DNA of 64,000 nucleotides from Methylophilus sp. (GTDB taxonomy: Bacteria; Pseudomonadota; Gammaproteobacteria; Burkholderiales; Methylophilaceae): assembly GCA_030696695.1 (NCBI GenBank), contig JAUYRP010000002.1, positions 124,001-188,000 on the forward strand. Direction: 5' to 3'. This document shows positions 34,245-46,448 of this stretch, piece by piece. Under the pieces are notes generated by a model. That model was not told the DNA's origin, searched no databases, and worked only from the letters and a program-made list of their open reading frames with translations. Position numbers and translations under genes: made by a program. How positions within the stretch are numbered: the stretch's first letter is position 1; each line of letters starts with the position of its first letter.

Positions 34245-34612
34245 GGGGCTGACCAGGTTTCGACGTGGGTTGCAAAGCAGTGCAGGGCATACCGAGGGTT
34301 CAGGTTTCCTCGTAAATCCATCTGAACAAGTATAGTCGCAAACGACGAAACTTACGCTCTAGCCGCTTAATACCGGCTGGACGCTGCACCATCTCTCCCG
34401 TGGGGTGGGTGGCCTTAAAACCATCGCAGCGTCATATACACGGGATACGTTTTACGTTGGGTTACTTAGCGTAAGATTAACCTTAAGGTAACTCGCTTAG
34501 TCAGTGCTTGTCTGTTGGTGGGGGCTAAGTTAAATTAAACAACAAGGCTAAGTATGTAGAACTGTCTGTGGAGTGCTTGCGGACGCGGGTTCGATTCCCG
34601 CCTGCTCCACCA
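34245..34612 (+). ncRNA. ssrA: Transfer-messenger RNA (tmRNA)
   Basis: 5' GGGGCTGACCAGGTTTCGACG, 3' GCGGGTTCGATTCCCGCCTGCTCCACCA; tag ORF GCAAACGACGAAACTTACGCTCTAGCCGCTTAA (ANDETYALAA*) at 34338-34370. Confidence 0.97.
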
Positions 34613-37290: not shown

Positions 37291-38457
37291 TTAATCATAA
37301 GTATATTCAAATCCTAATCTTTTTCCTTGGTTGTATCCACAGAACGCCTTTGAAGGTTCTCTGCCTAGAATTTTAGAAAGTAGCGAATAAAATTTATCTT
37401 TAATTCCAAGGGTCTTATTGTCGTTTTTGAAGGCAAACTCGGCAGCATAAAATGCCAAATAGACTCTTCCTATACCATTAAACGAACCAAACTCAGCTCG
37501 CCTCATTCTTGAAAAAAAAGATTCTGCCTGATTATTATTTACACCAAACTCATCTTGATATTGAGTCGAATGATTTACTGCAAAATGCTTTATACCAAGC
37601 AGAGGCTCTATTTTATTAAAAGCTCCTCCGGAATCTGTCATGATGATAGATTCTTTAGTAACAGATTTTTTTATGAGTGGTAGGATTATTTCAGCTGTCT
37701 CTTTCCTTAAAACGTAAGTTATCGTTCTGTTTGAGCCATACGATCCATCGTTATTTAACGCTAGCTGAGATAACGCAAGCACGATACGTCGATTTTTTAG
37801 CTTTTTTAAATTAGAAGGTTCAGGATGTGTTTTTTTATCAGGAACAATAGAATCCTTTCTAATTCTTAGTTTATTGTTAACTAAAACAGAATCAGATGCT
37901 TTTCTATTGTTGCTTCTCCTTGGCTTACCACAGATATGCATGCAATCAATATGGACTATGCCGCTCAAAGGCGTCATATCCATTGTTTCAAAGATTACTT
38001 CTCTAATTTTTCCAACATTTAGAAAGGCAGTCTTGTAGGTTATGCCTATATCAGAAGGGAGTTCATTTGCATTTGCACCTTGTAATCCCGTAATAAAAGC
38101 AAACAAAATCCATAATAATTTTGAAAAACTTAGCTTTCGATTATGGAACACAGTACCTGAAGTCACACTGAAGCGGTGGCTACAATGCTTACAATGCCAT
38201 TGTCTCCTTGTTTTGATGTACCAATGTTTTTCTATCGCTCCACATTCTGGGCATGCGAACCTCTCCTTATCTCCAAATCTGCACCGTTTAAAAATCTCCC
38301 AAGCCTCTTCCTCTGTGAGTTGCGCCAATTGATACAAGGTGAACTCTCTATTATCCTTATTTCGACTGTAATGCATTACCATGAATAACCTGCCTTTTCT
38401 TTTAAATGAAAATTGCAGGCGCAGCATGTGATTTTCAGGCAACAACAAACCATCCAA
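37291..38457 (-). CDS. IS1595-family (ISXO2-like) transposase
   Basis: 388 aa; N-terminal zinc ribbon (CPECGAIEKHWYIKTRRQWHCKHC), DDE-type core (VHIDCMHICGKPRR, MTDSGGAF, NQAESFFSRMRR). Confidence 0.8.
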   Translation of the reverse strand: MDGLLLPENHMLRLQFSFKRKGRLFMVMHYSRNKDNREFTLYQLAQLTEEEAWEIFKRCRFGDKERFACPECGAIEKHWYIKTRRQWHCKHCSHRFSVTSGTVFHNRKLSFSKLLWILFAFITGLQGANANELPSDIGITYKTAFLNVGKIREVIFETMDMTPLSGIVHIDCMHICGKPRRSNNRKASDSVLVNNKLRIRKDSIVPDKKTHPEPSNLKKLKNRRIVLALSQLALNNDGSYGSNRTITYVLRKETAEIILPLIKKSVTKESIIMTDSGGAFNKIEPLLGIKHFAVNHSTQYQDEFGVNNNQAESFFSRMRRAEFGSFNGIGRVYLAFYAAEFAFKNDNKTLGIKDKFYSLLSKILGREPSKAFCGYNQGKRLGFEYTYD

Positions 38458-38925: not shown

Positions 38926-39768
38926 ATGACTATTCAAGTGACACCATCAAAGTTGAGGAAAGGCGGACAATATAAACACTGGGCTGAGGAAGCACGTGTT
39001 TGGATTTGGTACCGAGCAATAAAATTAAATTGTGACTTGTCAGACTATGCACTAGATAAACTTTTTGCATGGACTGAAAATGGACAAGGAGATAAATCTA
39101 CAGATGAAAGACCACGGACGTTTGAATGGTTAAGAAAAAAAGCCAGAAAACCCAGGGGAATAAAAAATAAATGGCGCACCATGGACAATCTAGTTGCAAC
39201 GGTAAATCAAGACAAACGTTTCTATGGAACTAAAGATCTTTACTATTCCGACTTATGGAAACTGCTCCAAAAAAATACACACTGCTTAAAAGAAGTCCAA
39301 TTGCAGTTTGACGAGTTAATTAATAAATATAAATTGATTAGGGTTGATTCAGATTCTTACCAAGTTCTAACAAATTTGTGTATTAAGTACGGCAAGCAAT
39401 CAGTATTCGATAGATGCTTGAGAATATCACTCAGACAAATGAATTCTATCTCTGCAATTTGTTTGGTCTGGATTATCGGCCTAATGGCTCGGTCTCCTCA
39501 AACAAACTATATAAGAGAAATCGCAGAGTTAACTCTTGATAAGAGACTTGATGATTTTTTTGGAGTATATTTTAACGGTGAAAAGTTGCATTTACAGTAT
39601 TACACAGATGCTATTGAAGTGTTTTTAAATTCAAAAATAGAAAGTATTTCTAACGGTACAGTTGGATATGGATATGTAGAAGTCAAGAATGAATGGATAA
39701 TATTGCCTCATCAAGTAATTGATAATCTGTCTGAAGAAGTTTTATATCCACTTCCATTCGCTCATTAG
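38926..39768 (+). CDS. Hypothetical protein
   Basis: 280-aa intact ORF in the island; no family recognised. Confidence 0.55.
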   Translation: MTIQVTPSKLRKGGQYKHWAEEARVWIWYRAIKLNCDLSDYALDKLFAWTENGQGDKSTDERPRTFEWLRKKARKPRGIKNKWRTMDNLVATVNQDKRFYGTKDLYYSDLWKLLQKNTHCLKEVQLQFDELINKYKLIRVDSDSYQVLTNLCIKYGKQSVFDRCLRISLRQMNSISAICLVWIIGLMARSPQTNYIREIAELTLDKRLDDFFGVYFNGEKLHLQYYTDAIEVFLNSKIESISNGTVGYGYVEVKNEWIILPHQVIDNLSEEVLYPLPFAH

Positions 39769-39918: not shown

Positions 39919-40113
39919 ATGACATTATTACCTTTGGTGATGCGTAAAAATCAAAAGTTATCGAACCATCATAAATTTCTAATTGCTCAACAGGACGAAT
40001 TAACAATTGATGAGCCACTCCCAGCTATTCTTGACCTGAAAGAAGGCGGTTATAAAGTAGAGCGATCAACAAGAGTGACAGAAGTAAATCGCGAAACAAC
40101 AGATGATAACTAA
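39919..40113 (+). CDS. Putative graspetide precursor 1
   Basis: 64 aa; C-terminus ERSTRVTEVNRETTDDN; 8 nt upstream of a second ORF with the same C-terminal motif, followed by ATP-grasp. Confidence 0.7.
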   Translation: MTLLPLVMRKNQKLSNHHKFLIAQQDELTIDEPLPAILDLKEGGYKVERSTRVTEVNRETTDDN

Positions 40114-40121
40114 CAACAAAA

Positions 40122-40328
40122 ATGCACATGAGCCAAAAGCCATTTATTTTTAAATTCGCGGAACATATGGTTTCAAATCAATCTTGCGCATTGCGTTATG
40201 ACGAGTCTAGACAAATCTCTCAAGTTGAAATTAATGGAATTTGGGTAGATACGCCTGATGCTAATGTTGAAGTTTATGCATCAACTAGATGTACAAAGGT
40301 AAATGCAGAAACGACTGATGACCATTAG
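40122..40328 (+). CDS. Putative graspetide precursor 2 (TgmA-like)
   Basis: 68 aa; C-terminus ASTRCTKVNAETTDDH; stop overlaps the ATP-grasp start (ATGACCATTAG). Confidence 0.75.
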   Translation: MHMSQKPFIFKFAEHMVSNQSCALRYDESRQISQVEINGIWVDTPDANVEVYASTRCTKVNAETTDDH

Positions 40329-41298
40329 TAGATATGTGTTAATAGTTAGTACTGTCGCTGATATAGCTACTGACGATGTTATTAAACGGTTAACTGAAAA
40401 ATCAGTCCCACACAGAAGATTAAATACTGAGGACTTCCCATTCCATATTCTTTTTGCATTTAATCCAGAGATGATAAATCAGGGAGCTTGGTTGGAGGTA
40501 AACGGGGAAGTACTGCCACCTCCAACTTCAATATGGTACAGACGTTTTAGATCCCCACCTATACCTGATGGTATGGATTCAGGTGTACATCATTTTTGTG
40601 TTCAAGAAAGTCGAGCCGCGCTACTCGGAGCTATAGTAGGAAGCTCCGCTAGATGGATGAGTCATCCTTCAGCTATATGGCAATCTGAATACAAGCCTCT
40701 TCAGCTTTCAATAGCATCAAAAGTTGGCCTGAAAGTACCTAAAACCATCATTACAAATGACCCATCAGCAATTCGTAAAGCTTTTATTGATTTTGGGGAA
40801 ATGATTGTTAAGCCGGTTAGAACAGGTTATGTTTCCTATGCAGGCGAAGACCACTCAATATTTACATCACAAGTCCTTCAAGAGCATTTGGATGAGTTGG
40901 AGAATGCAACCTTAAGTCCCTCAATTTATCAGGAACTTATACCTAAAAGCTTTGATATAAGAGTAACAATAGTTGGTAAGAGGCTTTTCTCAGCCGCCAT
41001 TGATTCGCAATCTGACCCTGATGCTTCTGTTGATTGGAGACATACGGCAAATCCACTGCTGCCTCACTACTCAATAACTTTACCTCAAGAAATTCAAATT
41101 AAATTACTTAAATTAATGGAACTACTAGGGTTGAATTTTGCTGCTATTGACCTTATTCAAACACCTGATGGTGAGTATATTTTCTTGGAAGTCAATCCCA
41201 ATGGGCAATGGCTGTGGATTGACGATATTTTAAACCTGGGTATTTCAGACGCTGTAGCAGATTGGCTATCTGTTGCGGAGATCACATGTCAAAACTAA
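40318..41298 (+). CDS. ATP-grasp ribosomal peptide maturase (MvdC/D- or TgmB-like graspetide synthetase)
   Basis: N-terminal pre-ATP-grasp domain with SIWYRRFRSPP; GEMIVKPVRTGYVSYAG; YQELIPKSFDIRVTIVGKRLFSAAI; FLEVNPNGQWLWID. Confidence 0.85.
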   Translation: MTISRYVLIVSTVADIATDDVIKRLTEKSVPHRRLNTEDFPFHILFAFNPEMINQGAWLEVNGEVLPPPTSIWYRRFRSPPIPDGMDSGVHHFCVQESRAALLGAIVGSSARWMSHPSAIWQSEYKPLQLSIASKVGLKVPKTIITNDPSAIRKAFIDFGEMIVKPVRTGYVSYAGEDHSIFTSQVLQEHLDELENATLSPSIYQELIPKSFDIRVTIVGKRLFSAAIDSQSDPDASVDWRHTANPLLPHYSITLPQEIQIKLLKLMELLGLNFAAIDLIQTPDGEYIFLEVNPNGQWLWIDDILNLGISDAVADWLSVAEITCQN

Positions 41299-42428
41299 GT
41301 GATTGTTGGTGGATATTTACTGACTTAATTTTCCCAAGAATAAGACAGCTTTCACCTATCGATAAGAAAAATGATGAAAATCGTTGCCAAACAGAGCTTG
41401 CAGCAGTTAGAAAGCTTGTCACAGAACTTCCCGATACTGAAAAACGCCTTAAAGATTACTTAGCCTCAGTTACAGAGTTACTAGAATTGGAAAAGGCTCG
41501 AAAGCAGAGCATCGAAGCTAGACTCACTAGTATTATTGGCCTGACTTCAATTGCAGGCACAATAGTATTTGGTGGTCTAGTTGCCCAAGTTGCAGGAGCA
41601 CTGCATGTGGATTCAAAATGTTTGAAATGGTTACTTGCGTTAGGAGCTTTCTACCTAACTCTTCAGCTCTGTAGTTCGTTATTGGCAGCAGTGCGAGGAG
41701 TATCTAGATCAAGTTATATTACTAATAAAACTTCAGAACTTATTCCTACCAGCTCCGACACTATTGCATCTTTCTTAAAGAAAAAAATTATCTCCGCATC
41801 AGAAATGTATGCTGATCATCAATATGAAAATAACTCTAAGATAAGTCATATGGCTGTAGCTCATCAAGCTATGAATAACTTTGTTATTGGATTACTTGTT
41901 TTTGCATCGTCAATTGCTTTGTCGATTATATTTGCGGACCCTAAAATTAAAGAAGATGTTGGTTCAAAAGTTGCTGTTTACCTGCAACAACCAGACAGAA
42001 ACCTTCATCTAACGCATGTTGCGCGTATTGGCCCATTCCCCAGTGGAGAAAGTAAGCTTAGCAACAAGGAAAGTGAAGCTTGTGTAATTAGTTTATTGAG
42101 ACCGTATAGAAATGATTCTAAGCATGGTTGGCAATTGGTTGCTGGAATTGATAAGCAAAATTTAAAACCTAATTTGGTAAAAGTTTATGGTTCAAATTAT
42201 GGCTTGGCAATGGCTAGAGCTGCTTGGGTAAGAGATGTGATTTTGAATGGCGTTCAGGACTTTCACTCAGAGCAAACTATATTAAATGTGGCTGGTCCAA
42301 TGAGTATAGGGAGCGCATTCAGAGAAATAAGTTTAGAGTCTGACCGTATGGTAGATATTTTTGTATGGCAGAATCAGCCTCCAAACTTATCAACTCCAGA
42401 GTTGCTGAAACCAAAAGTCTGTCATTAA
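41286..42428 (+). CDS. Multi-TM membrane protein with coiled coil and OmpA-like C-terminal region
   Basis: Start revised to ATG at 41286 (overlaps the ATP-grasp end); three hydrophobic segments; C-terminal GSNYGLAMARAAWVRDVIL...SDRMVDIFVW. Confidence 0.6.
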   Translation: MSKLSDCWWIFTDLIFPRIRQLSPIDKKNDENRCQTELAAVRKLVTELPDTEKRLKDYLASVTELLELEKARKQSIEARLTSIIGLTSIAGTIVFGGLVAQVAGALHVDSKCLKWLLALGAFYLTLQLCSSLLAAVRGVSRSSYITNKTSELIPTSSDTIASFLKKKIISASEMYADHQYENNSKISHMAVAHQAMNNFVIGLLVFASSIALSIIFADPKIKEDVGSKVAVYLQQPDRNLHLTHVARIGPFPSGESKLSNKESEACVISLLRPYRNDSKHGWQLVAGIDKQNLKPNLVKVYGSNYGLAMARAAWVRDVILNGVQDFHSEQTILNVAGPMSIGSAFREISLESDRMVDIFVWQNQPPNLSTPELLKPKVCH

Positions 42429-46233: not shown

Positions 46234-46410
46234 TTTAAGATACCTATTTATTAAATGAATCACCTATAGTTTACTAGAGGCCTTTGAGCCGTAATAATTA
46301 TCTTACAAGCCTTTTGTTCAGTGATAAGTAAAAATTGTTACGTCTCCTTAGGGGACAAAGCGGTCATATCAAACTGATTCGTGTTACAAATAATTACTTT
46401 TGAAAAATTT

Positions 46411-46436
46411 AAAGAAGGCGCCTAAGCGCCTTCTTT
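46411..46436. terminator. Bidirectional terminator at island end
   Basis: AAAGAAGGCGC-CTAA-GCGCCTTCTTT, 11-bp perfect stem. Confidence 0.8.
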
Positions 46437-46448
46437 GTTTTTAGTAAA

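Follow-up and report, generated by a model that had tools for sequence, protein, structure and literature searches.

A three-gene graspetide cassette with a PycTM-like membrane protein, a candidate anti-phage module in Methylophilus

The window (the whole stretch of 64,000 nucleotides of Methylophilus sp. DNA that was analysed) carries two short precursor genes, an ATP-grasp peptide ligase gene and a membrane-protein gene, which make up a divergent copy of a three-gene cassette: single cores are split over two genes, and the membrane protein is extended (Table 1). We consider it a serious possibility, if short of a probability, that this graspetide cassette functions as a module of anti-phage (or toxin-antitoxin-like) type, in which the peptide would act on the PycTM-like membrane protein. 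With a little more reserve, we suggest that the cassette represents a new class of bacterial immune system: a graspetide, ribosomally made and ring-tied, would regulate a PycTM-like membrane effector inside the cell, and its role would be immune rather than antibiotic.

Table 1. Positions of the cassette genes and of neighbouring features in the window
Feature	Position	Strand	Details
tmRNA gene, left edge of island	34245..34612	+	ARAGORN
Precursor 1	39919..40113	+	64 aa; leader unrecognised; single core STRVTEVNRETTDD; core but not leader matches family profile
Precursor 2	40122..40328	+	68 aa; single core STRCTKVNAETTDD; family leader KPFIFKFAEH...YDESRQISQV
MvdD/TgmB-type ATP-grasp peptide ligase	40318..41298	+	326 aa; TIGR04187, TIGR04184, PF21068
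3-TM membrane protein, putative remote PycTM homologue	41286..42428	+	380 aa; family partner of ligase
DSR1, SIR2-type anti-phage protein	42430..46233	+	NF041818, 1858.9 bits (cut-off 1400)
Intrinsic terminator-like hairpin after DSR1	46410..46437	+	12-bp stem and T tract

The precursors end in VERSTRVTEVNRETTDDN (precursor 1) and YASTRCTKVNAETTDDH (precursor 2), and are unrelated outside the C-terminal core STRxTxVNxETTDD. Their last 16 residues share 11 identities, and the best 15-residue window also gave 11, compared with at most 8 in 1000 shuffled pairs. The two ORFs, different but for the C-terminal core, are present as the earlier note had described them, with a similarity far above chance. 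Because 4 of the 11 shared core residues use different synonymous codons, the match is maintained by selection at the protein level and does not reflect a fresh duplication. Precursor 2 has an alternative in-frame ATG at 40128. Each core has the form T-x4-E-x2-DD, with Ser/Thr donors ahead of Glu/Asp acceptors, and the pair adjoins the ligase gene.

The ligase matched TIGR04187 (E 2.7e-75; 253.5 bits, under the curated cut-off of 350), TIGR04184 (E 6.7e-68; 229.2 bits, under the curated cut-off of 475) and the Pfam pre-ATP-grasp model PF21068 (2.2e-11). Homologues of solved structure are 5ig8 (E 2.3e-49), 5ig9 and CdnC 7mgv (4.2e-41). Among its relatives the window ligase is a lone long branch; no copy was found at E<=1e-15 in the other members of the genus that were searched. 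The E. coli genomes searched gave no match. The spacing of Thr, Glu and Asp in the window cores was also seen in 62 T(K)T-pattern and 60 TxTxT-pattern cores of relatives. The earlier note had named conservation of the core next to synthetase homologues as one point on which its reading could fail, and T-x4-E-x2-D was found in many such precursors. With the two TIGR matches and the recurring core, its identification of graspetide-type precursors beside an ATP-grasp ligase stands, and the ORF pair very probably encodes, to judge from these sequence comparisons, the graspetide precursors for the ligase directly downstream. The assignment to graspetide biosynthesis is close to certain, the side-chain cross-links themselves being predicted.

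The precursors of relatives combine a PF[IL]..F...Y[DS] leader with mostly 2-6 cores, of the form TKTxxxxExDD or TxTxTxxxxExSDxD. Against a leader-core profile built from these precursors, precursor 2 scored E 1.5e-10, and its leader by itself 5.1e-9, whereas the leader of precursor 1 alone reached -0.5 bits. A by-eye alignment (PLV...PAI) had made it tempting to see a diverged family leader in precursor 1, but this was rejected on the profile score. One synthetase may, as the earlier note suggested, serve two leader types. The precursor family models of NCBIfam matched neither window precursor. The description of the precursor 2 leader as 'TgmA-like' was not borne out specifically: this leader belongs to a large thuringinin-like family, and TgmA was ruled out by the lack of a match to its family model and by the occurrence of the leader among relatives. 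Two precursor genes were also found at three other loci (L020, L026 and L036). The simplest reading of the window pair is that a multi-core product has been divided between two single-core genes, as an alternative to the idea that the products act as a pair. The earlier note mentioned neither the membrane partner nor the defence setting that are described below.

To survey the cassette, a pattern scan that took a single genome from each species, with ranking by how similar the enzymes were to that of the window, yielded 80 loci plus 19 viral loci, and membrane proteins were sought with an iterated profile seeded with four of them. Of the 80 nearest ATP-grasp loci, 68 had a membrane-protein homologue next to the ligase, as did Leptospira phage LE1 and, among the viral contigs, five. 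Going by their titles, the cassettes come from no fewer than nine bacterial phyla: Pseudomonadota, Bacteroidota, Bacillota, Nitrospirota, Chloroflexota, Acidobacteriota, Elusimicrobiota, Chlamydiota and Ignavibacteriota. When the 719 ORFs of 69 loci were clustered, the only recurrent genes were precursor, ligase and membrane protein, the next family occurring in 4 loci; no transporter (ABC transporters included), leader protease or other maturase was recurrent in the 69 loci. Distances between ligases and between membrane proteins were strongly correlated (Mantel r 0.917, compared with at most 0.135 in 999 permutations), and on the ligase tree the loci with a membrane partner clustered, with 2 changes as against 19 in shuffles. 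Ligase and membrane protein co-evolve, and the recurrent gene content, the correlated distances and the tree grouping together define a self-contained three-gene cassette. In Leptospira phage LE1 (L015, 3679-5580), the entire cassette consists of a three-core precursor, the ligase and the membrane protein. A further instance came to light afterwards, outside the genus of the window but within its family; it likewise has a normal three-core precursor, ligase and membrane protein, with neighbours that look restriction- or helicase-like by eye.

The window membrane protein has hydrophobic TM segments at residues 80-106, 115-136 and 195-221 (family members have 2-3), and its long N-terminal part is probably cytoplasmic. 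Two residues, R72 just ahead of TM1 and K185 just ahead of TM3, are invariant in all 56 aligned members and lie on the predicted cytoplasmic side. PADLOC PycTM models matched 27 of the 56 (best 4.1e-7), and when the family was set against ten PycTM sequences, profile to profile, the match had E 1.3e-7 and spanned 144 collinear columns, compared with E values of 0.01 or above for reversed or locally shuffled profiles. The window protein alone matched no PADLOC model. These comparisons point to a family that would be a remote relative of PycTM. SLATT was set aside as the closest family, the single model searched (SLATT_4) having given sub-threshold matches only. An AlphaFold model was confident from residue 1 to about 230 and not in the C-terminal extension, and Foldseek comparison of the model with the PDB returned nothing significant, just unspecific long helices. 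The extension (41949-42428, from about residue 222) has no Pfam match and no relative among the compared loci, and by topology is perhaps extracytoplasmic; a by-eye guess of an OmpA-like domain was dropped, having neither kind of backing.

These results bear on the possibility that the cassette makes a secreted bioactive graspetide, a protease inhibitor or bacteriocin-like product, with the membrane protein as exporter or immunity protein. Known graspetides do include protease inhibitors (the microviridins), and there is exactly one membrane protein per cassette. That thuringinin loci are associated with an uncharacterised membrane protein is already known; the family described here is probably cluster 18 of Makarova et al. 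2022, who proposed a role in peptide transport for these proteins in thuringinin loci that have no known transporter (PMC8939145). We nevertheless regard secretion as unlikely: the membrane protein resembles PycTM and not a transporter, neither a leader protease nor an ABC transporter recurs in the 69 loci, and the cassettes sit among defence genes and in phages. Since the cassette is without a secretion or protease gene, its product is most likely intracellular.

The neighbourhood of the cassettes was rich in matches to defence models. At E<=1e-20, the PADLOC models that matched among 121 and 122 flanking ORFs numbered 157 and 87, model totals that are not gene counts because the models overlap, compared with 7 for 123 control ORFs from arbitrary places, all of these from the window's class whereas the cassette flanks span many phyla. 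Ten hand-picked, and thus non-random, neighbours included Wadjet JetA, Lamassu LmuB, Mokosh-like MkoC, type III restriction and Gabija GajA. The link to defence suggested by this island position is one of guilt by association, and islands gather other cargo too.

In the mechanism that we propose, the ligase would link core Thr/Ser side chains to Glu/Asp through ester bonds, so that the C-termini become compact, acidic and ring-tied; in the window they would come from two single-core precursors in place of the usual multi-core precursor. The peptide would stay in the cell, where its target would be the PycTM-like membrane protein encoded beside it, with Arg72 and Lys185 probably close to the site of action. 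The more likely effect would be to keep this protein silent, the less likely one to activate it. If phage attack halted the supply or modification of the peptide, the membrane protein would then be freed and membrane damage would follow. PycTM in Pycsar disrupts membrane integrity once cyclic pyrimidines bind (PMC11224242), and the modified peptide might by analogy be an activating ligand, as cUMP is in Pycsar; multi-core precursors could also cross-link an oligomer. Activation is, in our view, decidedly unlikely, as precursor and ligase are tightly packed with the effector, and a constitutive supply of activator would be toxic unless the ligase senses infection. Precursor, ligase and effector seem to be products of a single operon, which makes the peptide likelier as an inhibitor than as an activator.

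The precursor 2 gene overlaps the ligase gene, and the ligase gene overlaps the membrane-protein gene. The DSR1 gene, which is complete, starts 1 nt past the end of the latter; on the coding strand no terminator-like site was found between the two, and the only strong one follows DSR1. This spacing and the single terminator behind both would suit a joint defence system of cassette and DSR1 in this genome, which we consider highly improbable, since DSR1 homologues stand alone elsewhere as single genes (a 52% homologue in a congener and two on plasmids among them) and other cassettes adjoin Gabija, Wadjet or Lamassu instead. An obligate partnership was ruled out on the same ground, and DSR1 is probably a separate system in the same apparent operon. 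A DSR1 copy of 88% identity occurs in another genus of the family, cut by the contig end.

At the left of the island, the tmRNA gene is followed by a G2P-type filamentous-phage Rep (34245-35800). The tmRNA seems to be a repeated insertion site, because in a congener (L156) a 77% Rep occupies this position too; no convincing att-like direct repeats were found around the island. An IS1595-family transposase lies within the island (37291-38457), and a 280-aa ORF without a Pfam match (38926-39768) is found just upstream of the cassette.

We know of no role for many graspetides. With a cassette in so many phyla, co-inherited with a PycTM-like protein and lying amid defence genes, an immune role for a large group of them becomes directly and cheaply testable. 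A literature search covering open-access papers and a small share of preprints found no published graspetide defence system, and within the literature searched four points appear to be new: the kinship with PycTM, the location in defence islands, the strict limitation to three genes and the split single-core layout of the window.

The closest known system is the thuringinin type (Lee groups 3/5/6; Makarova cluster 13 precursors and cluster 18 membrane proteins), with which the window has in common an MvdD-type ligase, Thr...Glu...Asp cores, an accompanying membrane protein that is uncharacterised and, in precursor 2, a PF..F...Y leader. It differs in having two precursor genes with one core each in place of several, one of them without the family leader, in the additional C-terminal part of its membrane protein and in a ligase just 40% identical to the nearest relative found. 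The TgmA/TgmB graspimiditides (fuscimiditide) have a ligase of a related ATP-grasp family, but the window has another leader, no TgmA match and, among the neighbours scanned, no isoaspartyl O-methyltransferase partner. The likeness to PycTM of Pycsar is a putative distant homology that covers the TM helices and the helical region after them, including an acidic-x-K-A motif before TM1. The partner in the window is a peptide ligase with its precursor rather than a pyrimidine cyclase, and no PycC was found among the neighbours scanned. DRT10-SLATT likewise pairs a small membrane protein with a machine making a repeated product, which has been suggested to engage the oligomeric SLATT protein in a multivalent form of control (PMC12632851); the repeated product is cDNA there and would be a ring-tied peptide here. 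If our proposal is true, ring-tied peptides would stand alongside cyclic nucleotides and cDNA among the molecules that may regulate membrane effectors.
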